From the NCBI GenBank assembly GCA_022478985.1, contig JAKSZP010015876.1, forward strand, positions 1 to 64,000: 64,000 nt of DNA. Reading direction: 5' to 3'. The stretch comes from Massospora cicadina (Eukaryota > Entomophthoromycota > Entomophthoromycetes > Entomophthorales > Entomophthoraceae). The number at the start of each line of letters is the position of its first letter. Position 1 is the stretch's first letter. Below the pieces are notes generated by a model. The model was not told where the DNA came from, made no database searches, and worked only from the letters and a program-made list of their open reading frames with translations. The position numbers were made by a program, and so were the translations under genes. Shown here one piece after another: positions 1,954 through 53,404 of this stretch.

Positions 1954-2059
1954 TAGAACATAAATGTAATGTTTAATATTAATCAAATATATATTAATTT
2001 TTAATAGAAAAAAAGTGAATACTTTTTACAAAGTGTATTTGTAAGAGGATATACTGGAG

Positions 2060-2336
2060 GCCTCATTAATGAAGAAAGCCCCCAATTATACCTCCTTCTG
2101 CCGCATGTCGCTGATGCCCCAACCACTATACTGTCCGCCATGGTCCACCAACTAAAGTGGGCACTGGACAAAAGTTTCCCCAAAGCGTCCTCACCTTCTA
2201 ATATGGCTTCCTAGGCTGATAACTTAGGGTCTATATTAGGAATTTTTTTATTTCTAATAATCCCTTTATTTAGCTCATTCACAAATAAAGATGCATGGTG
2301 GCTCACCCTTTTGAGTTGGGCACCACTAGTGCTAAA
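2060..2336 (+). mobile_element. Retroposon Rp, 277-bp copy with 17-bp target duplication
   Basis: The body is flanked by the exact 17-bp repeat AAGAGGATATACTGGAG (2043-2059 and 2337-2353) and ends in ACCACTAGTGCTAAAAA, a short A-rich 3' end as expected for target-primed reverse transcription. A homologous module lies at 42866-43148. Both copies give a similar peptide on the plus strand (LYLLLPHVADAPT here, LYLLMPHAADAPT there) reaching the 3' end, so the region was probably coding in the parent element. I do not recognise the protein family. The same 3' end recurs in much shorter insertions elsewhere in the window. Confidence 0.7.
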
Positions 2337-2350
2337 AAGAGGATATACTG

Positions 2351-2398
2351 GAGATTGGTGTATCCTCCCATTAGGTTAGAACCACTTGTGCTAAAAAT
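2351..2398 (+). mobile_element. Rp, strongly 5'-truncated copy (about 48 bp)
   Basis: Directly after the second target duplication of the 277-bp copy comes a segment ending GAACCACTTGTGCTAAAAA that matches only the last ~45 bases of that copy. It is followed at 2399-2410 by a third copy of the target, GAGGATATGCTG (one mismatch to 2339-2350). This reads as a second insertion at the same target, truncated at its 5' side. Confidence 0.65.
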
Positions 2399-2613
2399 GA
2401 GGATATGCTGCATATTTAATATTATATTTGTATTGGTTCATGACTAGAAACATCTATCATGTTAGCTCTAAGTTTAATAAATTGCACTTTAGTTTAACAT
2501 TTTTTACTATAAAATTCTATTTTGCAGTTAGAAATACTCTAAATTTCCATTTCTATCCTTATTATAAATTAAAGCAGTTGGCTTTTGTTTTTATTATATT
2601 AGATATTTTTTTA

Positions 2614-14527: not shown

Positions 14528-14561
14528 ATGATTGAAAAGGGTTAATTTAATGAGAGGATAC

Positions 14562-15990
14562 TGTCATGGAAATGGTAGAAGAAGTTTAGACTGGCCTGCC
14601 AGTCAGGATGCATAAGCACCCAAAAAGCAAGCCAGAATTCCAGAGGCATTGCTGACCAAATGACGTTATATGGATCAAGGCATTGGGAAATGACAAATTG
14701 TTGGTGTAACACAACAGTGAGTATGATCCTGACGACAAACCAAAATAAGCCCACTCCCTTCCCAGGGGTCTTGCTGCAGGGGGTGGGATCACAGCGATAG
14801 TTTCAATAATTTCATCAGCATAGGGAGTCATTTCAACTGGGGAGACAAGGAGATGAATTCTCTCTTGCAGTTGGTGGACATAAGGCCACAAGATCCCCAT
14901 GTACTGTTGACAGAAGTTCATGATAGCGGGGTTATAGAGCCAAAAGTATTTGACTCTCTGAATCCAATCAGCAATGGAGGGGGCATAGTGACCACAAGTA
15001 CTGGTAGAGCCCATCTGGTATATGGACCAACAGGCCACCAGGGAAACACCATCAGGGATGCGGTCAGAGGGAACAATCCAATAAAGAAATTGATTGGTTT
15101 TTTCAGGCAAAATTTTATTGAAGGAAAAGAAAGAAAATTGACCAACAATTTTCTCAGTGCAATGCAACTGATTGTAAAGTGGTTGATTGGGGTAGTGACA
15201 AGCCAGGATTGGGGCCCTCAATTTTGACCTAACTGGCGAATTATTTGGTAATGGGCGGGTTTATTCCCTGGGAACTAACATCAAAAAACTTGGCGGCGGG
15301 CTGAGTCACTGTTGTTTGACCTTGAATGTCGAAACTGAGGCTCAGCTGCATTTCTGATGGTTGGAGCAAAGGCGTTTGGCCCAATGAGTGACAGGAATCC
15401 CCCAAGGCCACCCCACATAGGGGCAGGTCCATTTGGTTGGTAATGAGTTTGGGACGCCCAACCCACCCGCACTCAGTCACTGGGCCATTCATTTGATCAG
15501 TGGCATTGCATTGTCTGCAGCGCCCAAATTATCCATGGGGGACTTTGAACCCTTGTCAATGATGTCCAATGTTATAGCTTGCCCATTGAGGATGATCCTT
15601 GACAACTTTGGTAGGGAGGTGATTTGTTCAATCAGCATATTGGTCAAATTGAAACCGTTGGGCGTTCTGGCTGATAACTCAGTCTTCATGCCTTTCCAGC
15701 CATTTGAGATCCAAACATTGGTCAGATTGCCACTCAAATTAGATCCAATTAATTTTAATTCAACATTCTCAGTGCAGATTTCACTGATTCCCTGTAACAG
15801 TTCTACTGAGGTGGGTTTGGGTACTGGGGGTGGAATCCAAAGTGGAAGAGATGTTACCCAGCGCTCATCTACTATGCGAGCAATATTGCCCTGAGTAATG
15901 AGGGGTACCACCATCCTATTCAGTGCCTTCTTACTCAGAAATGGGATAATGGCCCAATCAACAGCCAGGGGACGTTCCCCAGGACTTACA
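14562..15990 (-). repeat. E1 3' LTR (1429 bp)
   Basis: On the minus strand it begins TGTAAGTCCTGGGGAACG and ends TTTCCATGACA. It matches 20764-22190 over its whole length with scattered substitutions and small indels. The pol frame enters it and continues 166 codons; further frames within it are described separately. Confidence 0.95.
14586..15221 (-). CDS. LTR-resident open frame, 211 codons
   Basis: An uninterrupted minus-strand frame in the 3' LTR. Residues of roughly 60-110 (ADWIQRVKYF...QQYMGILW) match a frame in the E2 LTRs (NWAYYAKILL...QKDIGILW and VNWVYHVKYL...QQDISILW), so at least that section was under coding constraint. The E1 5' LTR copy is broken by a one-base change into 20991-21422 and 20788-20994. 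The last ~55 residues lie in a different frame from the conserved 'EFWLAFWVL' segment, so the true product probably included a frame change here. No known domain; several stretches are hydrophobic. Confidence 0.45.
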   Translation of the reverse strand: MRAPILACHYPNQPLYNQLHCTEKIVGQFSFFSFNKILPEKTNQFLYWIVPSDRIPDGVSLVACWSIYQMGSTSTCGHYAPSIADWIQRVKYFWLYNPAIMNFCQQYMGILWPYVHQLQERIHLLVSPVEMTPYADEIIETIAVIPPPAARPLGREWAYFGLSSGSYSLLCYTNNLSFPNALIHITSFGQQCLWNSGLLFGCLCILTGRPV

Positions 15991-20380: not shown

Positions 20381-20956
20381 GCGGGCATCCCCATCCACAG
20401 CATCCAACAACGCAAGCCCTTGTTGGGTATGCAATAATATGGAAGCATTGTTAAGTGCAATAGCTGTATGCATTTTCACCTCAGCGAGCGCGTCAAGGAC
20501 TTGATTGGTGATCTCCCAAGAAGGGACACTCAAGCTTCCTTCTGGGCTAGTGGAAGGAGGAGGATCCGCAATCTGTACTGCTTGGGTGGATTGAAGAAGA
20601 TTTTCCAAGGTAGAGCAGATACTTCTCCCAAAATCAGAAATTGACCAAACAAACAACAAACAGCAAACTACTGATTGCACATTCATTTGGTACAGGGTAA
20701 CCACTGCAGTGCCCAGTTTGAAGAACAAGGCGGAAGTGGCTGGAAACAATGGCTGGTCGATTATGTCATGAAAATGGCATAAGAAGTTTAGACTGGCCTG
20801 CCAGTCAGGATACGTAAGCACCCAAAAAGCAAGCCAGAATTCCAGAGGCATTGCTGACCAAATGACGTTATATAGAACCAGGCATTGGGAAATGACAAAT
20901 TGTTGGTGTAACATAACAGTGAGTATGATCCTGACGACAAACCAAAATAAGCCCAC
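20267..20956 (-). CDS. E1 gag-like ORF starting inside the LTR, membrane-type N-terminus
   Basis: The 229-codon frame starts at 20956 in the 5' LTR, leaves the LTR after about residue 64, and continues into the internal region with no stop or untranslated leader. The first 107 residues hold four hydrophobic stretches (about 3-16, 34-48, 70-88, 93-107); the rest includes LLDAVDGDARHWVTGLL, which could be gag-like. E2 has the homologous segment WLAFWVLLHPNWQASL...AAVVTLYQMNVQSVV, so the frame and hydrophobic character are conserved between diverged elements. A different start upstream is possible. Membrane insertion is inferred from composition only. Confidence 0.6.
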   Translation of the reverse strand: MGLFWFVVRIILTVMLHQQFVISQCLVLYNVIWSAMPLEFWLAFWVLTYPDWQASLNFLCHFHDIIDQPLFPATSALFFKLGTAVVTLYQMNVQSVVCCLLFVWSISDFGRSICSTLENLLQSTQAVQIADPPPSTSPEGSLSVPSWEITNQVLDALAEVKMHTAIALNNASILLHTQQGLALLDAVDGDARHWVTGLLRSSSQAGDPTPLMAVMSAALKPPVSQSNHL

Positions 20957-22190
20957 TCCCTTCCCAGGGGGTTTTGCTGCAGGGGTGGGATCACAGCGAT
21001 AGTTTCAATAATTTCATCAGCATAGGAGTCATTTCAACTGGGGAGACAAGGAGATGAATTCTCTCTTGCAGTTGGTGGACATAAGGCCACAAGATCCCCA
21101 TGTACTGTTGCCAGAAGTTCATGATAGCGGGGTTATAGAGCCAAAAGTATTTGACTCTCTGAATCCAATCAGCAATGGAGGGGGCATAGTGACCACAAGT
21201 ACTGGTAGAGCCCATCCAGTATACGGACTGACAGGCCACCAGGAAAACGCCATCAGGGATGCGGTCAGAGGGAACAATCCAATAAAGAAATTGATTGGTT
21301 TTTTCAGGCAAAATTTTATTGAAGGAAAAGAAAGAAAATTGACCAACAATTTTCTCAGTGCAATGCAACTGATTAAATAGTGGTTGATTGGGGTAGTGAC
21401 AAGCCAGGATTGGGGCCCTCAATTTTGACCTAACTGGCGAATTATTTGGGAATGGGCGGGTTTATTCCCTGGGAACTGACATCAAAAAATTTGGCAGCGG
21501 GCCAAGTCACTGTCAGTTTGACCTTGAATGTCCAAACTGAGGCTCAGCTGCATTTCAATGGTTGGTGCGATGGCATTTGGCCCGACGAGTGACAGGAATC
21601 CCCCAAGGCCACCCCACATAGGGGCAGGTCCATTTGGTTGGTAATGAGTTTGGGACGCCCAACCCACCCGCACTCAGTCACTGGGCCATTCATTTGATCA
21701 GTGGCATTGCATTGTCTGCAGCGCCCAAATTATCCATGGGGGACTTTAAACCCTTGTCAATGATGTTCAATGTTATAGCTTGCCCATTGAGGATGATCCT
21801 TGACAACTTTGGTAGGGAGGTGATTTGTTCAATCAGCATATTGATCAAACTGAAACCGCTGGGTGTTCTGGATGATAACTCAGTCTTCATGCCTTTCCAG
21901 CCATTTGAGATCCAAACATTGGTCAGATTGCCACTCAAATTAGATCCAATTAATTTTGATTCAACATTCTCAGTGCAGATTTCATTGATTCCCTGTAACA
22001 GTTCTACTGAGGTGAGTTTGGGTACTGGGGGTGGAATCCAAAGTGGAAGAGCTGTTACCCAGCGCTCATCTACTACATGAGCAAGATCGCCCTGAGTAAC
22101 AAGGGGTACCACCATCCTCTTTGGTGCCTTCTTGCTCAGAAATGGGAAAATGGCCTGATCAACAGCTAGGGGATGTTCCCAGGACTTACA
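20764..22190 (-). repeat. E1 5' LTR (1427 bp)
   Basis: Same ends as the 3' LTR (TGTAAGTCCTGGG... ...TTTTCATGACA). On the minus strand CTATTTAAT near 21370-21380 is a TATA-like candidate. The gag-leader frame starts inside this LTR and crosses its edge at 20764 without a stop. Confidence 0.95.
20788..22115 (-). pseudogene. Coding frames in the E1 5' LTR
   Basis: The 5' LTR carries the same frames as the 3' LTR: 21690-22115 is the 141-codon LTR copy of the pol C-terminal extension (VDERWVTALPLWIPP), here detached from pol; 20991-21422 and 20788-20994 are the two halves of the 211-codon LTR frame, split by a frameshift. In the 5' LTR the first lies upstream of any likely transcription start. 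Confidence 0.5.
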
Positions 22191-33516: not shown

Positions 33517-34816
33517 TTATGTAAGAGAGCCACAAGAAATGATCGTTATTGGTAACAAAGGAGAATCCCCCTGAAGCGTTGGTACATCGGAGAGCTCTTG
33601 TAGTATCTCAAATCCTTTTGTGACTTCACCAAAAAGAACGTGCTTTCCATCAAGCTTGGAGAATCTTTTAGATTCTTCCTTCTGGGCACCATTAGCACTT
33701 GGAAGAGTAAAGAAAAATTGGGAAGAATTTGTATTTTTTCCAGAGTTGGCCATTCCAAGTTGACCTGGCTTGGTAAATCTGAGTGCTAAGCCACCCTTTT
33801 CGTCATTAAATTTCCCCCCAAAGATGGAATCACCACCACTACCATCCCCTTAAAAATTCAGTAAGTCTTTTTTTAGTACTAGATGGTAAAATTCAGTAAG
33901 TCTTCATGTCAACTTACCTCTTGTAAAATCACCCCCTTGTATTATAAACCCAGGTACTAGCCTGAAAAATCGACACATTAAATAATGCAAAGGTTTCTTT
34001 GTTAATTTAGAGACTCCCTTATCGCCCTTGCAGAGATGATAGAAATTTTGGCAAGTCTTTGGGCAAATCTCATCGAACAGTTTAATTTCCAATTTCCCGC
34101 CTGGTAGTGGTTTAGGCGGAATGAATTGAATAGTCCCTTTTTCGCTAAAATCTGGATAATTTGTAACCATCTCGTTTAACATATCAATCTTTTCTTGATC
34201 AAGCTGCTGATTCTCACAGCCTTCGATTATCCAACCTGCGTGTTGTGCGATAAATTTTTGCCCTAACTCATATGCTGCTACCTCTTTTTGATGCTGGCCT
34301 AAATTCCCCGATTGCAATTTCTAAGAAAACTTCCATCATTCTAAAAGCAAATATATTACAGGTTAGAATTACCAAAAATTAAGCAAAACACTAAGGAGAA
34401 ATAAAAATAAAGTGAGAAAAATCTTAGATCAAGGATAGAAGTTGAAAGCAGACGGAATAATAAAAAGCTCTTAGTTTGGTGTTAGCTTAGATAACAACAT
34501 AGATAATTAAACCCAATTAAAATCTAGTTATTTTAACATTTCAAGCATAAAACTTTCAAGCTACAGATGAAATCTAAAGCTGGATATTAAGAATAACCAA
34601 TCGCAGTAACAATATAATATCACATACAAAATAAATAAAACAAAGTTAACTGTTCGATAAGATGCAAAATAAAAAACACTCGCAAAATAATAAATGAAAT
34701 ATGACTTGGTTAACAATAAACTGTTTAATGAAAATAGAAATAATTAGTGAAAGGGGTATAAAATTTGGATACAAGTGAAGCTTTTAGAAAATAAATAAAA
34801 AAAGGTATAACTTACC
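33517..34816 (-). CDS. Cyclophilin-type peptidyl-prolyl cis-trans isomerase (spliced)
   Basis: Three exons are supported: one ending at 34816 (start not determined; reads [16 protein letters not shown]), 34320-33918, and 33848-33517. Introns are 34815-34321 (GTAAGT...TTAG, phase 0) and 33917-33849 (GTAAGT...TAAG, phase 1). The cyclophilin fold is clear: [48 protein letters not shown] and [14 protein letters not shown]. The Arg, Gln and Asn-x-x-x-Gln-Phe active-site elements are kept; the Trp that binds cyclosporin in CypA is replaced (KLDGKH). About 85 residues precede the domain. Cyclophilins isomerise prolyl bonds to help protein folding. The frame is intact, so this is the best candidate for an expressed host gene here. 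Confidence 0.9.
33870..33887 (-). mobile_element. Micro-insertion of Rp 3' end in a cyclophilin intron
   Basis: Eighteen bases, ACCATCTAGTACTAAAAA on the minus strand, lie between two exact 17-bp repeats AAAATTCAGTAAGTCTT (33853-33869 and 33888-33904). The inserted sequence matches the last bases of the Rp retroposon (ACCACTAGTGCTAAAAA). The event added 35 bases to the intron, which is now 69 nt and would have been 34 nt before. Confidence 0.75.
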
Positions 34817-35815: not shown

Positions 35816-35992
35816 AAAAGGCAGGATAAAAAATGGAGCAAAATTGCTAAAAAAAACCCGATTTAACCTCTAGCATGCTAGACTAGGTTCCCCTAGCATA
35901 GCTGAGGAGGAAGGGGGGCGAATTGGGTGTTTGAGGGATCGCGCCAGAGCAGATAAAAATGGAGTAGGCGCATCACCTGAATGTGGTTCCTT

Positions 35993-36474
35993 GTATGTAT
36001 GTATGTATGTATGTATGTATGTATGTATGTATGTATGTATGTATGTATGTATGTATGTATGTATGTATGTATGTATGTATGTATGTATGTATGTATGTAT
36101 GTATGTATGTATGTATGTATGTATGTATGTATGTATGTATGTATGTATGTATGTATGTATGTATGTATGTATGTATGTATGTATGTATGTATGTATGTAT
36201 GTATGTATGTATGTATGTATGTATGTATGTATGTATGTATGTATGTATGTATGTATGTATGTATGTATGTATGTATGTATGTATGTATGTATGTATGTAT
36301 GTATGTATGTATGTATGTATGTATGTATGTATGTATGTATGTATGTATGTATGTATGTATGTATGTATGTATGTATGTATGTATGTATGTATGTATGTAT
36401 GTATGTATGTATGTATGTATGTATGTATGTATGTATGTATGTATGTATGTATGTATGTATGTATGTATGTATGT
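35993..36474. repeat. Perfect (GTAT)n microsatellite, about 120 units
   Basis: 482 bases of uninterrupted GTAT. It reads open in nearly every frame (Met-Tyr-Val-Cys or Thr-Tyr-Ile-His repeats), which is a consequence of the period and not evidence for a gene. It sits at the 5' side of an H2 Helitron-like copy; other H2 copies have only a short imperfect version at that place. Confidence 0.98.
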
Positions 36475-38729: not shown

Positions 38730-38860
38730 TTGTATTTTTATTTTTTGTATAGACTTTTGTTTTATTAAATAAACCAGCTTTAAAAAAATTGAGTTATAGC
38801 TGCTTACAATATAATTCTTTATGATTTTATGAAACCCAAGATATAAATGACCTGAATGTC

Positions 38861-38879
38861 GGACCATCTAGTACTAAAA
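38861..38879 (+). mobile_element. Rp micro-insertion upstream of tRNA-Thr (plus orientation)
   Basis: The sequence GGACCATCTAGTACTAAAA lies between exact 16-bp repeats AAATGACCTGAATGTC (38845-38860 and 38880-38895). It consists of the Rp 3' terminus plus two extra bases. It sits about 130 bp upstream of the tRNA-Thr 5' end. Confidence 0.75.
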
Positions 38880-38903
38880 AAATGACCTGAATGTCACTTC
38901 TTT

Positions 38904-38917
38904 TTTTAGTACTAGAT
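38904..38917 (-). mobile_element. Rp micro-insertion upstream of tRNA-Thr (minus orientation)
   Basis: ATCTAGTACTAAAA on the minus strand, bracketed by exact 17-bp repeats CTGAATGTCACTTCTTT (38887-38903 and 38918-38934). Its left repeat overlaps the right repeat of the neighbouring micro-insertion, so the two events are stacked. Confidence 0.75.
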
Positions 38918-39195
38918 CTGAATGTCACTTCTTTATTCATATAATATAACGTAAATGAATGTTTAAAGGATAATCAGAGAGTTTTTATAAATTAAATTAC
39001 CTTTAGATTAAAACTGCTTAACATGATTGAGTATTTAGAGTCTCTTTATATTTTATGTGTTACTTAGTAATTATCTCTCCTGCTTATAACTTGAGATCTG
39101 ATTCTAGTAAAACAAGAAGAAACCAAGATATAATATAAGATGTAAAATGATCGTTATTACTCAGCTCTGATATAAAAAGTATTTATCTAAATTGA

Positions 39196-40130: not shown

Positions 40131-40364
40131 TCCTTAAATTTCAACATTTTGCATTTCAATTTTAATATTTTAAAATTCAGTTTTAACATTTTGTATTTCA
40201 ACTAAACATTTTACTTTTCAATATCAATATAATTTTTGGCAATAGTTTTATTTTTCCTGCTGAAAAAGAGGTAATAATATTATTGTCTACTCTTTTTTTC
40301 TATAAAAATATTTACCTATTCTTTATTAAATTATAATATATAAAAAGAAAACACTGATGCTGAG

Positions 40365-40378
40365 ACCAACTAGTGCTA
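40365..40378 (+). mobile_element. Rp micro-insertion (about 14 bp)
   Basis: ACCAACTAGTGCTA plus part of an A-run lies between exact 17-bp repeats AAAACACTGATGCTGAG (40348-40364 and 40379-40395). This is the shortest insertion of this type in the window. Confidence 0.75.
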
Positions 40379-40639
40379 AAAACACTGATGCTGAGGAAAT
40401 TAATGATTCTATAACTATAACTAGATACAATACAATTACTAATGCTAAATGCCTTAGCCTTATTTTATCAGTTTATGAATAAGAAAAGACTACAAATGAA
40501 GCTGCTTATTTTTAGAAGTAAACTATAATACTGCAAGAACTATAACTTCTATTTATGAATCAAGTTATATTATATAAAATATATAAAGGTGGAAGTGAAA
40601 AAAGGGTGCTTAATCAAGCTCATACAGAAAATATTGAAG

Positions 40640-41200: not shown

Positions 41201-41639
41201 TTTTATCTCCAAATTTATATAGCTATATCCAATTGAAAATATCTTTTTAAAGATAAAAATGGAGTTAGATCAAAGTTAATAAGTGGTGCAAGTAAATTGC
41301 TATTAGACTTAATTGTAGAGGAGAATGCCACTGTTTCAGCCACTGATAGTACAGAATATTTTAGATTTAGTCATAAAAATATTACATATTATGCAGCTGA
41401 TTTTCCCTATGCTCATCATTAAAAATGCTTTATAAATGTATTTCTTATAATTGATAGATTTAATATTTTTAAAATATTTTTTTACCAAAAATTATCATGT
41501 GATTGAAATAGAATATATTAAAATTGATTTATAGAATGTTGAAATTAAAATAAAAAAATGTTGAAATTGAAATGCAATTTGAAATCAAAATGCAAAATGT
41601 AGATAAAAGTATGGATTTGTCTTCCTGCCCCCAACCTCA

Positions 41640-42812
41640 ATGAAATCTGGCGCAGCTTTCAAAACAGCAGCCAATCAAACTTTTCAAAACTTTAGAAATT
41701 TTAATGATTCTAATGGATTAAGGAATTCTGAGTCAATGGCTGAAACAGTTTTGACAGAGCTGCTGTGGTCAACTATTCACATCCAATCAGGTTCTGTGAT
41801 TGCACTAACCTCAGTGGCTGGCTCAGCATTAGTTGAGTTAAATCCATTTGAGTGTCTCAAATGGCTCAATTATAATGTCAGGTCATTTAAAATGAAGCCA
41901 GATTTTGCTTTGGAGGAATTTTTTGTTGAACCTCCTGATATGTGCCCCCACCATTTTGTGCTAAAGATACACAGTGCATCCAAAAAGTTCTGGGACTAAC
42001 GTTTTAAAGACATAACTTTACAAATAAATAAACTTTCTTTTATAATAATTTAACATACAACCTTTCCCTCTCTATACATATTTATATTGCTAAAACAATT
42101 GTTAAAAGGTATGCACATAGTTCCTATTTTGTATAACTATGTTTAAACCAGCTATCACATTTTTCTTAATTGTCTCTACTTTATCAAAAGGATGAACCTT
42201 CAGTGCCACCTTCAGATTAGAGAACAGAAAGAAGTCAGATAAAGCCAAATCTGGTGAATAGGGTGGATAATTATAATCTGAAGGTGGCACTGAAGGTTCA
42301 TCCTTTTGATAAAGTAGAGACAATTCAGAAGAATGTGACAGCTGGTTTAAACATGGTTATACAAAATAGGAACTATGTGCATACCTTTTAACAATTGTTT
42401 TAGCAATATAAATATGTATAGAGAGGGAAAGGTTGTATGTTAAATTATGATAAAAGAAAGTTTATTTATTTGTAAAGTTGCGTCTTTAAAACGTCAGTCC
42501 CAGAACTTTTTGAATGCACTGTGTAGCTATCCAACTTTCAAAAGTATCAATAAAATAGCAATTGAAGCAGCTGCTGCCCCTGCCAACACTCTCCTCCATC
42601 AACTCCTTCATAGGGAGATGGAACCACTTGTTGAGGATATTCCTATATCTAATTTTCCTTATAAGTTTGATGAAGATGCAAAATACAAAATTGAAGAACT
42701 TGCATTTGGTGTGAGCTGCACATGCATCAACATGGCAAAAACTTCATTTTTGATCCCAACTATTTTCAAACCTGCCAGTGTATCAAGTCATTCACTTTTA
42801 TGCCTGCTTTAA
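41640..42812 (+). pseudogene. Unidentified ORF split by a fold-back mariner
   Basis: Before the mariner (41640-41969) the frame reads 110 codons (MAETVLTELLWSTIHIQSG, ALVELNPFECLKWL); after it (from 42526) another frame reads KIAIEAAAAPANTLLHQLLH, PLVEDIPISNFPYKFDEDAK to a stop at 42812. Removing the mariner does not rejoin the two in one frame, so there is also a frameshift, or they are separate. I do not recognise the family. The Rp-like module follows at 42866, so this may be the body of the parent retroposon. Confidence 0.4.
41970..42523. mobile_element. Fold-back mariner-type element
   Basis: TA duplications (41968-41969, 42524-42525) flank a 554-bp element with ends CACAGTGCATCCAAAAAGTT and its inverse. 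The left arm (to about 42203) and right arm (from about 42287) are near-perfect inverted copies, each ending the same transposase C-terminus (ETI-KNV-AGLN-VIQNRNYV). The centre carries, on the minus strand, PPYSPDLALSDFFLF, the mariner motif with the third catalytic Asp. Two transposon 3' halves are thus joined head-to-head; it is non-autonomous. Confidence 0.85.
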
Positions 42813-42865
42813 TCACTTTTACTAAGCATCAACTTGCTCAATATGTTGAGTAAAGGATACCATTA

Positions 42866-43148
42866 GCTTTTTTAACAGAGATAAAGCCCACACCTATACC
42901 TCCTTATGCCCCATGCTGCTGATGCGCCAACCCCTATTTTGTCCACAATAGTTAGCCAATTGAAGTGGGCACCAGATAAAAATTTCCCTAAAGCTTATTT
43001 GCCTTCTGATATGGCTTTCTAGGCTACTAGCTGAGGTGCCATGTTGAAAATTTTTATTAATGATAATCCCTTTGTTTGGCTCCTTTGCAAATAAAGTTGC
43101 GTGGAGGGCTCCCCTTTATTAGGTTGGGTACCACTAGCGCTAAAAAAA
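42866..43148 (+). mobile_element. Rp-related 3' module, second long copy
   Basis: Matches 2060-2336 over its full length and ends ACCACTAGCGCTAAAAAAA. It keeps the peptide YLLMPHAADAPTPILSTIV...WAPDKNFPKAYLPSDMAF with few stops. No 5' target repeat was found adjacent, so this copy may extend further upstream (perhaps to about 41605). Confidence 0.65.
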
Positions 43149-47875: not shown

Positions 47876-49320
47876 ATGTCAGGGAGCAGTTGGGCAAGCA
47901 AGGTAAGAGGAGCAGGTGGAAGGCCCACGGCCTCCAACATTCGAAAACGCCCTGGAGAATCCAGCGGAATAGACAAAAATCTTAAAAACTGGCAGTCACA
48001 ATTTCCCTGGAGATACTCACATGGCAAGCATGATGCAACCAGTACATTAACACGCCACACTTCCAACCACTTTCATCGGTGGAATTCAGAGTCTGCGTGT
48101 ATCTGGACATCCAAAAAATGGCCTTATGGGAAAAATTTTGTGAAGATGTACACAAAATTTTCACCCAACCGCGGTGTACGTTGCACCTCACTCCATGTCA
48201 TGCGGTTGGCTGGACCTAGGTTTTGAAAGCAAAAAAGCAGCAGATGAGGCTGCAGCGGTGTGCATAGTGGTCAACCTCCCCAAAGGGCAATGGGTCATCG
48301 AAACCAAATGCACCAGATGGACAAAATCAAACCAAATTTTCCTCACATTTGACTTTTTGCCTACTACAGTAAAATGTGACATTTTGGAACAACACCTGAA
48401 AGATGGTCTCACCATATACAGCGAAATACAATCTTTCAAAATGCAATGCTTCACGCTGATGCCACACCTGTGCACCAACAAAGCCATCGCAGTTCTGACC
48501 CCAACTGAGGAGATCACAAAAGACCTAACCCAGATCCTGCACTCCACTTTTATTGATATTGCAGGGCATACCACACACCCAACCCAGGTGACCGTGGACA
48601 GCGCGCCCCCCATTTGCACCCACTGTGATGCATTCAGCCATAAGGTGCATGTGTGCCCCATCAAGGAGGGCATCACATTCCAAGAGCACCCCTCAGTGGC
48701 CATGGCCAATGGAGAGGCGCACTACAAACCAACCGCAAGCACCAAGGAGGCTTTCCCGTAGGGAGCACAAGGCTGCTACCTATTGGTAAAGCCTATCTCC
48801 CCGCAAGAATGGAAGAAGGCCAAGCAGGCTCATAGGGCTGCAGCCAAGGAAACGGCCAAGGCCACCACTGCTATCCCACACTCACAACGCCAGGAGGACA
48901 TGGAAACCTTTGTGGTGGAAGCAACTTGGGAATCCATCAACCAATCAGATTGGGAAGCCCATGCCAAGTGGGCCACTCAATCCGAGGATCTGATAGAAGA
49001 CTTGATCTCACCCAATTGTTGCACCCAAGCCCCAGTTGAAACTGACTTGGGACCTATCTCAACTGAAAATTTTTTTTTTTGACCCACTCAACGGTGCACC
49101 AAACTCATCTGCACTGCAAAAAATTTTTCTGACGTCGGGAAAACAAAAAGTGAAGGCCAAAGCCAATGTGACTCTTTCCGCAAAAATCAACAAAAACTCT
49201 GATAGTGTTGCTGCTAACACCTTTGCTGCTGTGAAAGCCCATGGGGACCTTGAAGAGGCTGGTGGGCCTGGGGCCCACCCCCTCACACCTAAGGTGCGAT
49301 GGGAGAAACCTTCACTTTAG
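47876..49320 (+). pseudogene. LINE1 ORF1 (nucleic-acid-binding protein)
   Basis: The frames 47876-48226, 48174-48761, 48783-49082 and 49036-49320 are consecutive parts of one ORF separated by shifts. Near 48615-48656 it encodes CTHCDAFSHKVHVC, a C-x2-C-x4-H-x4-C zinc knuckle; the N-terminal part is basic (RKRPGESSGIDKNLKNWQSQ). LINE ORF1 proteins coat the RNA in the particle. The C-terminal part is rich in Lys/Ala. The last frame overlaps the ORF2 start by 22 bases. Confidence 0.75.
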
Positions 49321-52300
49321 GGATGTTGAATATCGCTGGGCTCAAGGCCTCCCTATCCCAGGCTAGGAAACTGAGTTTTTTACAACACAATTTATCCGTA
49401 TATCCTGGCCATCCAGGAGTCCCACTGTCCACAAGGTTCCGAGAAAACTTGGAAAACAATGCTCCTCCCATCCCTATCCTTTTGGTCAAAGCACTGTGGG
49501 GTGCTAATTTGGAAAAATAATTTTTTCAAATTCGTATCCTCAGAAACATTCCTAAATGGCCGAGTGCTCATCATCACCTTCTCGTGGGCTGATGTAGCAC
49601 ACGCAATTGTCAACATCTATGCCCCAAACGGTGCACATGAGCATTGGGAATTTTTCTCATCAGTCAAATCCCTCCCACTACCCCCTGATTCTTTCCTAGT
49701 TGGTGACATGAACTGTTGGCTAACCTCACCAACGACTGGTGGCCTCCCTCACCCCACGCCCCACAGGGTCACATAGAACTATGCATTCTAAAGGCCACCC
49801 TTGGGTTAATGGATGCACTGCCATGACATGCCCCGCTGCTCAAAAACATATTGCATCCCCACATCCACAACAGCCAATTAAGGTCCATGACCCACATTGA
49901 CCTTATTCTAACGCCAGCAAAATTCCAACCCCACATCTCCCACTTCAAAACAACAAAAATGGAATTCTCTGACCACTGACTGGTCTCGATAACCTACCAC
50001 CTGCCTGTCACAGTTGCTAAGGCCCCACATTGGTGCAAAATCCGTCCCCCTGAGCTCGCGTTGCCAGGATTTTCCATGTGGGTGGAAGAGGCAACTTTGG
50101 CAAAAAGTTTGTTGCACTATTTTGCGCGGACCCCATTTCCACATGGGCAACTTTCAAAGAGGACACCATCTGCCACTCTCACCATCTCTCCTCCAGATGC
50201 TCATGAGCCACATTGGCGGTTATCTCGCACACTCTGGCAGAATTGGTACACTTGGAGTCCAACATTCCAGCTACAGGATACAGCCCTGCATGGGGCTGGA
50301 AGTGGGCAGAGGCAGCCGCCCACCTCAACGCACCCAAAAGGCAACACAAACATCAGGTTTGTGTTCAATACAGGGCCACACACATCACAAAAGGTGACAA
50401 GTGCACCGCATAATTCTTTAAAAATTTTTTTGCACCATGCCAGAGCGTGGCCTGCACACAGGTGCAAAGATTGGATAATTCTATTGCGGATACACTGGCT
50501 GAAGTGGCAATCAAAAATGCAAAAATATTACTCCGAGTTGTACCGAGACAAACCAATTCAGCCGGCTGAAGTGGCAGAATTTCTCAACCGAGCTCATATC
50601 CGCACCATTTTCCAATACCCAGAAATAATGAATTTAATTACTCTGAACGAATTATGGACAGCCATTTGCAGTGCGCCAAACTGAAAATGCCCAGGCCCAG
50701 ATGGCATTCCATATGAGTTCTACAAAAAATATTACAAATATATATCCCTACTTCTGCTTGCCTCACTTAACAAAGCCTGTTGGAAACGCGCCTCCTACCA
50801 GGAGGACATAAGGCCTTTACTGTCACACTCTTCAAGAAAGGGGATAAGCTTGACTTAGCCAACTGGCGCCCCATTTCTCTAACAAACACAGACACCAAAA
50901 TTTTAACAAAAATTATGGCTAACCAATTAGGGACTGTAGCATCTGCCACCATCTCCCCAGAACAATTTGGTTTCATCACCAGAAGGTCAATTTGGGATAA
51001 CGTGCACTCTGTGGCTAAAGTATGTCAGTCCACAGCCTCTGGGGCACTTGTATTCTTGGACCAACAAAAGGCCTATGATAGAGTAAACTGGGAATACCTA
51101 AGGGCCTTCCTCCATTAATTCCGCCTACCCCCTCGCTTCATCAACTGGGTGATGCTGCTCACAGAATCTGCAACAATGGCAGTATGTGGCCCTGGCTTCC
51201 TAACGGAAGTAGTCCGCCCTCAAAGGGGCTTGCGACAAGGGGACCCCCTCAGCCCACTCTTATACAACTTCAGCCTTTACCCACTACTGCGAAATGTGAA
51301 TGCCCAACTCACTGGGGTCCATGTGCCAGGCCAAGCCCCAGTCAAGATGTTGGCATTCGCAGATGATTGTGTGGTTGGGGTGTCTAATAATCAATTTGCA
51401 CGCGCGCTTGAAGCTCTCATCCAGGAATATTCCCGGGTAAGCAACGCGGCACTGAACGCCACCAAAACTGAAATCATCCTCCTTGGTTGGTTTCAGAACT
51501 GCTGGGCCCCAGCAATTAGTTCCCAACCTGGCCCATCTGCTCGCCCATGTCCAGGCCTTACTAACTCAACACACACCGCTCCACTGGTGCTCCCTTTTAT
51601 GCCAAGTCCTACCATAGGACTGGTGCGCCATCTGGGTTTGTGGATGGTGGCAGGCGGATACGCGTCAGCAGTAATGGAGTGCCATATTCTGGACAACGTG
51701 ATGAAGCGAATCGCCTCTCTCAGAGCCCACCTTACTTCCCTTACTGGCAGGGTTGTTTTAGCCAACTCTATGCTCCTATCCAAAGTCTGGTTCAGAGCCC
51801 ACGCCATCCCCTTCTCCCCAAGCTTATTCAAATCCTTGTATGCCTTGCTGCAAGGATGGCTTTGGTCAGGCCGCCCTCCACCAGTGCAGCTAGAGGTCAT
51901 GTTTGGCCCTTATCATCATGGTGGCATGGGCCTTCTTGACTTCAAAGACCATGCTGCCAAGATCCTGGGCATCTGGATCGCGGCCATCACCGCTCCTACA
52001 CTCCCATCCCAACACTGGTCCCGCGCAACCCACTCCAACTTCTCCCAAGCCTTGGGCCTCAACAATCCATTGAACCCCCACTCCCCTGATGAAATACCTC
52101 GCATCACACACATCAGCCACAGGTCCTCACGGGACAAAAACTTACTACAAAGGAATACTACTCTCCATGTGGAGCGCAGAGTGGAGAATTTGTATTAGTG
52201 GACATACAACCCAAAGAGGCCGCCCCTCTCCTCAGTTCACACAAGAGGTACAGGGGCTACCCATCCATGATGGCATGATCCCCATTTGGCCCCATGTCCT

Positions 52301-52925
52301 ATCCAGGGTGGACTACCTGGACATGATGGACATCCCTTATTCCATTGAGACCCAAAAAACAATCTGGAAATATGTACATCACCCTCTGTTGCAGCCTCAA
52401 GTCCACTCCCATGTGTGGCGCTGCCTGAGGTGGGTGTATCGTACAGCTGAGCGCTCTAACGCTTTACACTCATCCTGTGTCATGTGCGGCCAGTATGGAA
52501 CGCTGTTCCACCGCCTGGAGAAGTGCCCCACCTCTAAAGTGATATGGCGCAAAGTTCAACGTCTGCTGGGCCAGGATCAAACGCATCCCTTCAGTCTGTC
52601 AAGAGATATGTTTGCTCTATCAATGGCATCCTCCCTTCCACCCTCCCTCCGTGCTCTGGTGGTTGCAATCGCCATGTGGACCATCCACACGATTGTCTTA
52701 GATGCCATCGCAGGCTCCACCCCCACCCTCCCAGAAACTGTCCACAGATTCCAGTCTCATTTGGTGGACCACTTTCAAGCGTGGATGTTTGGATACCTCC
52801 CACCGCGTTGCCAACAGCTGGTCTCCTCCTGGTTCCCAGTCTGGTTCATCAAATCAGACCCCTTCCTCCACATGTGCGCAATAGTGGCTACAGCCCCTTC
52901 ACACGTTCCCTCCCCCTCCCCATAA
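49299..52925 (+). pseudogene. LINE1 ORF2 (endonuclease and reverse transcriptase)
   Basis: Endonuclease motifs: LGMLNIAGLKAS near 49315, LAIQESHCP near 49405-49435, VNIYAPNG near 49610, FLVGDMNCW near 49695. Near 49970 the SDH motif is present but followed by a stop. RT: PGPDGIPYEFYK near 50700, LANWRPISLTNTD near 50860, DQQKAYDRVNWE near 51060, RQGDPLSPLLYNF near 51235, KMLAFADDCVV near 51345-51375. The C-terminal part (52089-52925) has CVMCGQYGTLFHRLEKC near 52480-52530, a C-x2-C-x7-H-x4-C motif. At least three frame breaks occur. Confidence 0.85.
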
Positions 52926-53404
52926 GTGGCGTTCCCGCTGGCAACAAAAGATAGCATCGCTTCTCTGGGGTGCCTCCCCTGGTACTAAGTTTATCTGTCC
53001 TGAGTCATATTCGGAAGTGTCTGTCCCATGGTCAGCCTTCCTCACAATAAATTTAAAATTTAAAATTTAAAATGAGTTAGATAACTTGATAGGTTTTATT
53101 GAATTTGGCCAAGTGGTTGGTGGATGGTTAATTCTTTAGGTTTAATGGTTTATGAATTTATTGATGGCCATATACCGATATAAAAATTATAATAATTGAT
53201 TAAATTCATCTAGTAAGTTATAAACCCAAGCAAAGCTGGGTTACTTGATCAGTAACTTTATTATTTTAGAGCTAGTAAGAATTCATGGTTTATAAGTACA
53301 CATTAATATGAGTTTATTTTTATTTACATATAATGTAAAACCCTTATTTGCAAGAACTGTAAAATGACCATAGTATCAGGTTTTTATAAAAAGACAAATT
53401 TTAT

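Follow-up and report, generated by a model that had tools for sequence, protein, structure and literature searches.

The genome of Massospora cicadina contains very short insertions that consist of the 3′ terminus of a LINE and lie between target-site duplications (TSDs). These micro-insertions have a constant 3′ end and clustered 5′ ends, they are abundant in the assembly, empty paralogous sites exist for some of them, and their terminus is also that of a long LINE copy carrying endonuclease and reverse transcriptase (RT) domains. The best explanation, and in our judgement very probably the right one, is that target-primed reverse transcription in most cases breaks off in the final 45 nt of the LINE RNA and is yet completed with a normal TSD.

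Micro-insertions in a 64-kb window

The window, that is, the whole stretch of 64,000 nt that was analysed (contig JAKSZP010015876.1), was scanned without reference to any motif for perfect direct repeats of at least 12 bp with gaps of 6–60, excluding low-complexity repeats and a TGTA array (about 121 perfect copies at 35992–36474). Four of the 16 repeat pairs obtained enclose the terminus CTAGT(A/G)CTAAAA, each between perfect repeats of 16–17 bp (Table 1), and the majority of the remaining 12 are within repeat arrays. Two of the four, with overlapping duplications and opposite orientation, had been described in the initial annotation as inserts of 14 and 19 nt with TSDs of 16–17 bp at 38845–38934, and both were recovered exactly there; those at 33853 and 40348 are additional. 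When up to one mismatch is allowed, the window has nine matches to the terminus, compared with a mean of 0.76 in shuffled sequences. All five exact matches are bracketed by a duplication, the fifth being that of a 277-nt insert.

Table 1. Positions of LINE-derived insertions and related copies in the window
Feature	Position	Strand	TSD (bp)	Insert (nt)	Sequence and remarks
Micro-insertion 1, left TSD copy	38845..38860	+	16		perfect repeat AAATGACCTGAATGTC
Micro-insertion 1, insert	38861..38879	+		19	GGACCATCTAGTACTAAAA; equals the LINE 3′ terminus
Micro-insertion 1, right TSD copy	38880..38895	+	16		second AAATGACCTGAATGTC
Micro-insertion 2, one TSD copy	38887..38903	−	17		perfect repeat CTGAATGTCACTTCTTT; overlaps the right TSD copy of micro-insertion 1
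Micro-insertion 2, insert	38904..38917	−		14	ATCTAGTACTAAAA; minus-strand terminus
Micro-insertion 2, second TSD copy	38918..38934	−	17		CTGAATGTCACTTCTTT again
Micro-insertion 3	33853..33904	−	17	18	insert ACCATCTAGTACTAAAAA; within an intron of the cyclophilin gene
Micro-insertion 4	40348..40395	+	17	14	insert ACCAACTAGTGCTA; sister subfamily
Longer insertion of a related family	2043..2353	+	17, perfect	277	insert at 2060–2336
Older insertion	2334..2410	+	17, imperfect (2 mismatches)	43	insert at 2351–2393; target common with the 2043..2353 insertion
Longer copy of a related family, 3′ part	42883..43145	+			ends in CTAGCGCTAAAA; no duplication found within 320 bases

The terminus of micro-insertion 1 also ends the LINE copies L003, L005, and L014. 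Besides the pair at 38845, a second case of stacking is seen at 2043–2410, where GAGGATATxCTG occurs three times and an older 43-nt and a newer 277-nt insertion share one target. Micro-insertion 3 lies in an intron-bearing cyclophilin gene, whose exons encode a protein with 75% identity to an Entomophthora muscae protein. By subtraction, and with inferred exon ends, this insertion would have lengthened the intron from 34 to 69 nt, 34 nt being the length after removal of the insert and one duplication (33840–33930, minus strand). The insert includes TACTAAAA, which resembles a branch-site word. Micro-insertion 4 (ACCAACTAGTGC) derives from another subfamily, of which no long form was found.

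In the initial annotation, the inserts were equated with the 3′ end of a full-length retroposon termed Rp, and this attribution has to be revised. In the window, the long retroposon copies (2326 and 43134), which are 77% alike, read ACCA-CTAGT, unlike inserts long enough to include this site, which read ACCA(T/A)CTAGT. The three inserts with CATCTAG or ATCTAG match a LINE family other than that of these copies, present elsewhere in the genome. The copies were rejected as the source, one base of the inserts being missing from their terminus; they belong to a related family, a relative rather than the parent of the inserts. Three pieces of the ORF of one related copy (41620–43020) gave no Pfam family, and the one piece searched gave no homologue. 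An inverted repeat whose arms of 255 nt show 96% complementarity is inserted in the ORF of this longer copy at 41965–42528 and looks like a foldback DNA element. LINE ORFs in the window carry an RT domain; a second LINE, with an RT domain and a tail of AAATTT repeats, is located at 48174–53075. The blocks 14557–15656 and 20759–21857, 95–97% alike and about 6.2 kb apart, are perhaps two LTRs of one element.

Abundance, target duplications, and the source LINE

Words of the terminus and of the sequence upstream of it were counted by exact match in the 1.47-Gb assembly. The 13-nt terminus TCTAGTACTAAAA is present in 37,178 copies, compared with 169 for its reversed control, and ACCANCTAGTRCTAAAA in 33,167 copies compared with 3. 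The reversed controls gave 0 for the 24-nt word GGTTGGGACCATCTAGTACTAAAA (12,143 copies), for CATCGATGAATCCCCC, an upstream word without the terminus (6,725 copies), and for AATAAACATCGATGAATCCCCC, the latter word extended by AATAAA (2,207 copies). All these counts are of exact matches and are lower bounds, and as a series they overstate truncation because longer words also lose copies through point mutation.

Direct repeats accompany the motif far more often than random positions. When all 79 distinct CTAGT(A/G)CTAAA sites in the sequences analysed were examined for a TSD within 80 bases, 65 had one, compared with 12 of 3000 random anchors (another random-anchor set gave 8 of 1500); anchors at CTAAAA scored in 9 of 211 cases (seven family members and two in L038 repeats) under a faulty filter, and the random anchors are the control relied on. 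Long copies are among the 14 sites with no TSD in that range. The 65 TSDs all differ in sequence, 47 of them are perfect, 56 begin with AA, and their length is 12–23 bp with a mode of 17. In a target logo of 38 sites, the bases before AA are T-rich; A is absent from the base preceding the TSD, in part as an artefact of repeat alignment. The variable TSD length at 65 of the 79 sites is that of LINE insertions, as is the combination of a constant 3′ end with 5′ truncation at varying points.

Insert lengths were taken from 57 of 100 listed ACCANCTAGTRCTAAAA places, all on contigs at the head of the list. Included were the first 30 places, 20 of the following 22 (contigs 2–3; two with ACCACC were omitted), and the last seven (contig 7). 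Because places were chosen by list position, they do not form a random sample. The set comprises 37 inserts of 14–33 nt and 11 of 40–54 nt, both classes with a flanking repeat, together with six long copies and three short inserts for which no TSD was found (L027, and L065 and L069, examined within stretches of 149 bases). Ten of the 11 longer inserts reach the CATCGATG region or nearly so. At L053, the eleventh, the repeat is only 10 bp and the 41-nt insert matches the LINE over only about 19 nt, and several inserts have 5′ bases absent from the LINE (e.g., L008, L009, and L077). Furthermore, at ten extra places where the 13-mer is not preceded by ACCA, nine have a TSD, with eight inserts of 12–21 nt and one of 44 nt. 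A sample independent of the motif, 17 stretches with 164,575 bases in total, was scanned in the motif-blind manner for perfect repeats of at least 13 bp and gave 14 pairs. Seven of these have gaps of up to 40, and six of the seven end in the terminus or in one of its variants (L033, L035, L038, L039, L043, and L044) while L041 does not. Clustering of terminus sites is not significant: a neighbour within 1.2 kb is present at 6 of the 100 listed places, compared with 3.1 expected (P = 0.08).

For 38 sites, the insert and one duplication were removed and a collinear paralogue spanning the junction was sought in the sequences analysed. Six of the sites have such an empty counterpart, in which the target is present once; these are paralogous repeats and not other strains. 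The clearest case is L020, which is 87% identical to L034 over 317 bases, identical across the junction, and matched there by one target copy. The 42-nt insert at L016 has a counterpart rated good at another place in L034 (81%), and L008 and L017 have paralogues at 76–77% plus weaker ones. L023 (66%) and L028 (72%) have weak paralogues only, which alone are not good evidence.

The long copies L003, L005, L014, and L015 are 95–99% identical over 1.3–1.5 kb and have an identical terminus. The copy at L039 (minus strand) is 4,069 nt long with a perfect 17-bp duplication at both ends; Exo_endo_phos (PF03372) and RVT_1 (PF00078) score above the cut-off in this LINE and zf-RVT just below it (27.3 vs. 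27.5 bits), and a piece of it shows 96% identity, over 25% of its length, to an M. cicadina protein. With an AP-type endonuclease, a reverse transcriptase, and the common terminus, L039 has the features of an autonomous source; the micro-insertions come from a LINE with endonuclease and RT domains. In L015, around 1456, a long LINE copy lacks about 116 nt adjoining the tail, perhaps as a result of a template jump. LINE expansion in the M. cicadina assembly is mentioned in an earlier report (PMC11105155).

Insert ends and possible origins

The stops are clustered: most inserts extend up to about 33 nt and a second group is found near 42–47 nt. Of the insert starts at 65 sites, 52 are 2–15 nt before CTAGT (29 of these at 5–8), two at 19–20, and eleven at 28–34, the last group starting mostly at (A)CATCGATG. 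This second class begins directly after an AATAAA word and at an 8-nt palindrome, on the AATAAA/CATCGATG boundary. In the genome-wide counts, two thirds of the matches are lost between the 13-nt and 24-nt words (37,178 to 12,143), and a further two thirds disappear when the six bases AATAAA, about 45 nt from the end, are added (6,725 to 2,207). The latter drop does not come from point mutation, since six bases at the 1–5% divergence of long copies would cost at most about a quarter. No insert at the 57 sampled sites ends between 55 and 300 nt. One of the six long copies is 510 nt, four are longer than about 1.3 kb, and L052 is known only as longer than about 300 nt; intermediate inserts of 277 and 309 nt occur in related families.

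The tail is predicted to fold as GAUG-UCCC...GGGA-CAUC, followed by UAGUACUAAAA. The short class ends in the 3′ part of this predicted stem-loop, and the second class just past its 5′ base. The stem-loop is hypothesized from its position and not from its energy, because fold energies do not exceed those of shuffles (z = −1.53 for the 81-nt tail and 0.28 to −1.32 for six shorter tails). At this position, five of six tails, two of which are near-identical, can form a stem, while the 43134 copy folds otherwise; the family tail alignment has four rows only. The 3′ stem-loop may cause the stops, and it is perhaps the recognition element of the RT itself.

In the reading favoured here, each micro-insertion would represent a retrotransposition event that ran to completion but inserted almost nothing of the element. 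The AP-type endonuclease of the LINE would nick a T-rich site before AA, and the RT would prime at the 3′ terminus of the LINE RNA, CTAGTACTAAAA. It would then copy about 12–33 nt and halt in the 3′ part of the predicted terminal stem-loop, or alternatively copy the whole stem-loop (about 42–47 nt) and halt just past its 5′ base, short of AATAAA. Insert 5′ ends would thus be RT stops, and the short cDNA would be joined at the other side, probably by host end-joining, with a normal target duplication of 12–23 bp (mode 17). Target-primed reverse transcription that halts after a dozen or so bases and still completes integration was already suggested in the initial annotation; the excess of repeats, the empty sites, and the abundance support it, and it also fits the constant 3′ and variable 5′ ends, the long LINE copy with endonuclease and RT, the common terminus, and the 17-bp TSD. 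Beyond this, the LINE RT may have an abortive-initiation phase, in which it must melt its own 3′ recognition stem-loop and mostly fails, and the cell completes the integration. Abortive target-primed reverse transcription at the recognition stem-loop, followed by ordinary end-joining, is proposed on the basis of the stem-loop binding of stringent-type LINEs and the limits that NHEJ sets on ZfL2-2 length, and we regard the chances for and against such a phase as evenly balanced.

The sharp start of the second class at (A)CATCGATG, right after AATAAA (6,725 vs. 2,207 copies), is also what the 5′ end of an RNA would give, as if LINE transcripts yielded processed 3′ fragments of about 17–25 and 42–47 nt that are copied end to end. 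However, the short class is spread across more than ten start positions, and long copies, including L039 with its 17-bp TSD, have the same terminus; such short templates seem unlikely. Another possibility is that the RT works normally, no structure is involved, and host end-joining intervenes at a very early point, sealing the site at random lengths. Indeed, ZfL2-2 insertions made in DT40 cells are shorter owing to NHEJ factors (PMC2666801). But the loss of matches is not smooth, with the two-thirds drops at 13–24 nt and within six bases near 45 nt, and the interval of 55–300 nt is empty at all 57 sampled sites while related families do have inserts of 277 and 309 nt, and we consider this account quite improbable.

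The inserts are very short and fairly uniform in size, as a miniature DNA transposon or chance repeats might also appear. On inspection, however, the inserts have neither the terminal inverted repeats nor the fixed TSD length of MITEs and DNA transposons: their 5′ ends vary, their 3′ end is constant, and the TSDs range from 12 to 23 bp. Chance repeats are excluded by the reversed-word and random-anchor controls, and an origin other than retrotransposition is extremely improbable. Nor do the inserts fit SINEs, which have internal Pol III promoter boxes: on inspection, those of 12–33 nt consist almost only of LINE tail and are too short for two boxes.

Relation to known LINEs and significance

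Severe 5′ truncation is already ordinary for LINEs. The insertions described here resemble 5′-truncated insertions that human L1, zebrafish ZfL2-2, and other LINEs make by target-primed reverse transcription in the common 3′ end, the 5′ truncation, the TSD, the target near T/AA, and a source with endonuclease and RT. They differ in that the sampled products are mostly 14–33 nt with a second class near 42–47 nt, in the concentration of truncation points within the final 45 nt, and in their number, which by extrapolation amounts to tens of thousands of copies. Stringent-type LINEs (ZfL2-1, ZfL2-2, and UnaL2) need a 3′ stem-loop bound by their own protein, and a Tad1-clade pair is mentioned beside them; in the part of this source available, no stops at the stem-loop are described (PMC4176376). 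The Massospora tail is likewise common to related families and has a predicted stem-loop adjoining the terminus, but its fold is not statistically significant and recognition by a protein is putative. Table 1 of PMC4859970 lists a human disease insertion comprising 6 nt of Alu plus a 40-nt A tail, and this case demonstrates that integration can run to completion once a few nucleotides of the element have been copied. It is one event, with a long A tail and a target deletion of 1.4 kb, whereas the Massospora insertions form a routine class that has TSDs and short runs of A. In the literature searched, no description was found of a LINE that mainly produces inserts of a few dozen nt or fewer, with TSDs, tens of thousands of copies, and two stop clusters; most subscription papers were outside the reach of this search, so a report may exist.

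Insertions of 12–47 nt are likely to be missed by repeat annotation and would be mistaken for small indels. If LINEs routinely complete micro-insertions, integrations are underestimated by counting recognisable copies, which here are the six long ones among 57 sampled sites. Micro-insertions also alter genes, as in the case of the cyclophilin intron. The presence of two stop clusters makes the cause of 5′ truncation directly testable on one 45-nt RNA tail. If the abortive-initiation reading is true, tens of thousands of footprints of 12–47 nt (by extrapolation), each adding about 30–65 bp with its TSD, would represent a major unannotated class of small insertions made by LINEs and would record, on the scale of a genome, where the RT stops in vivo.
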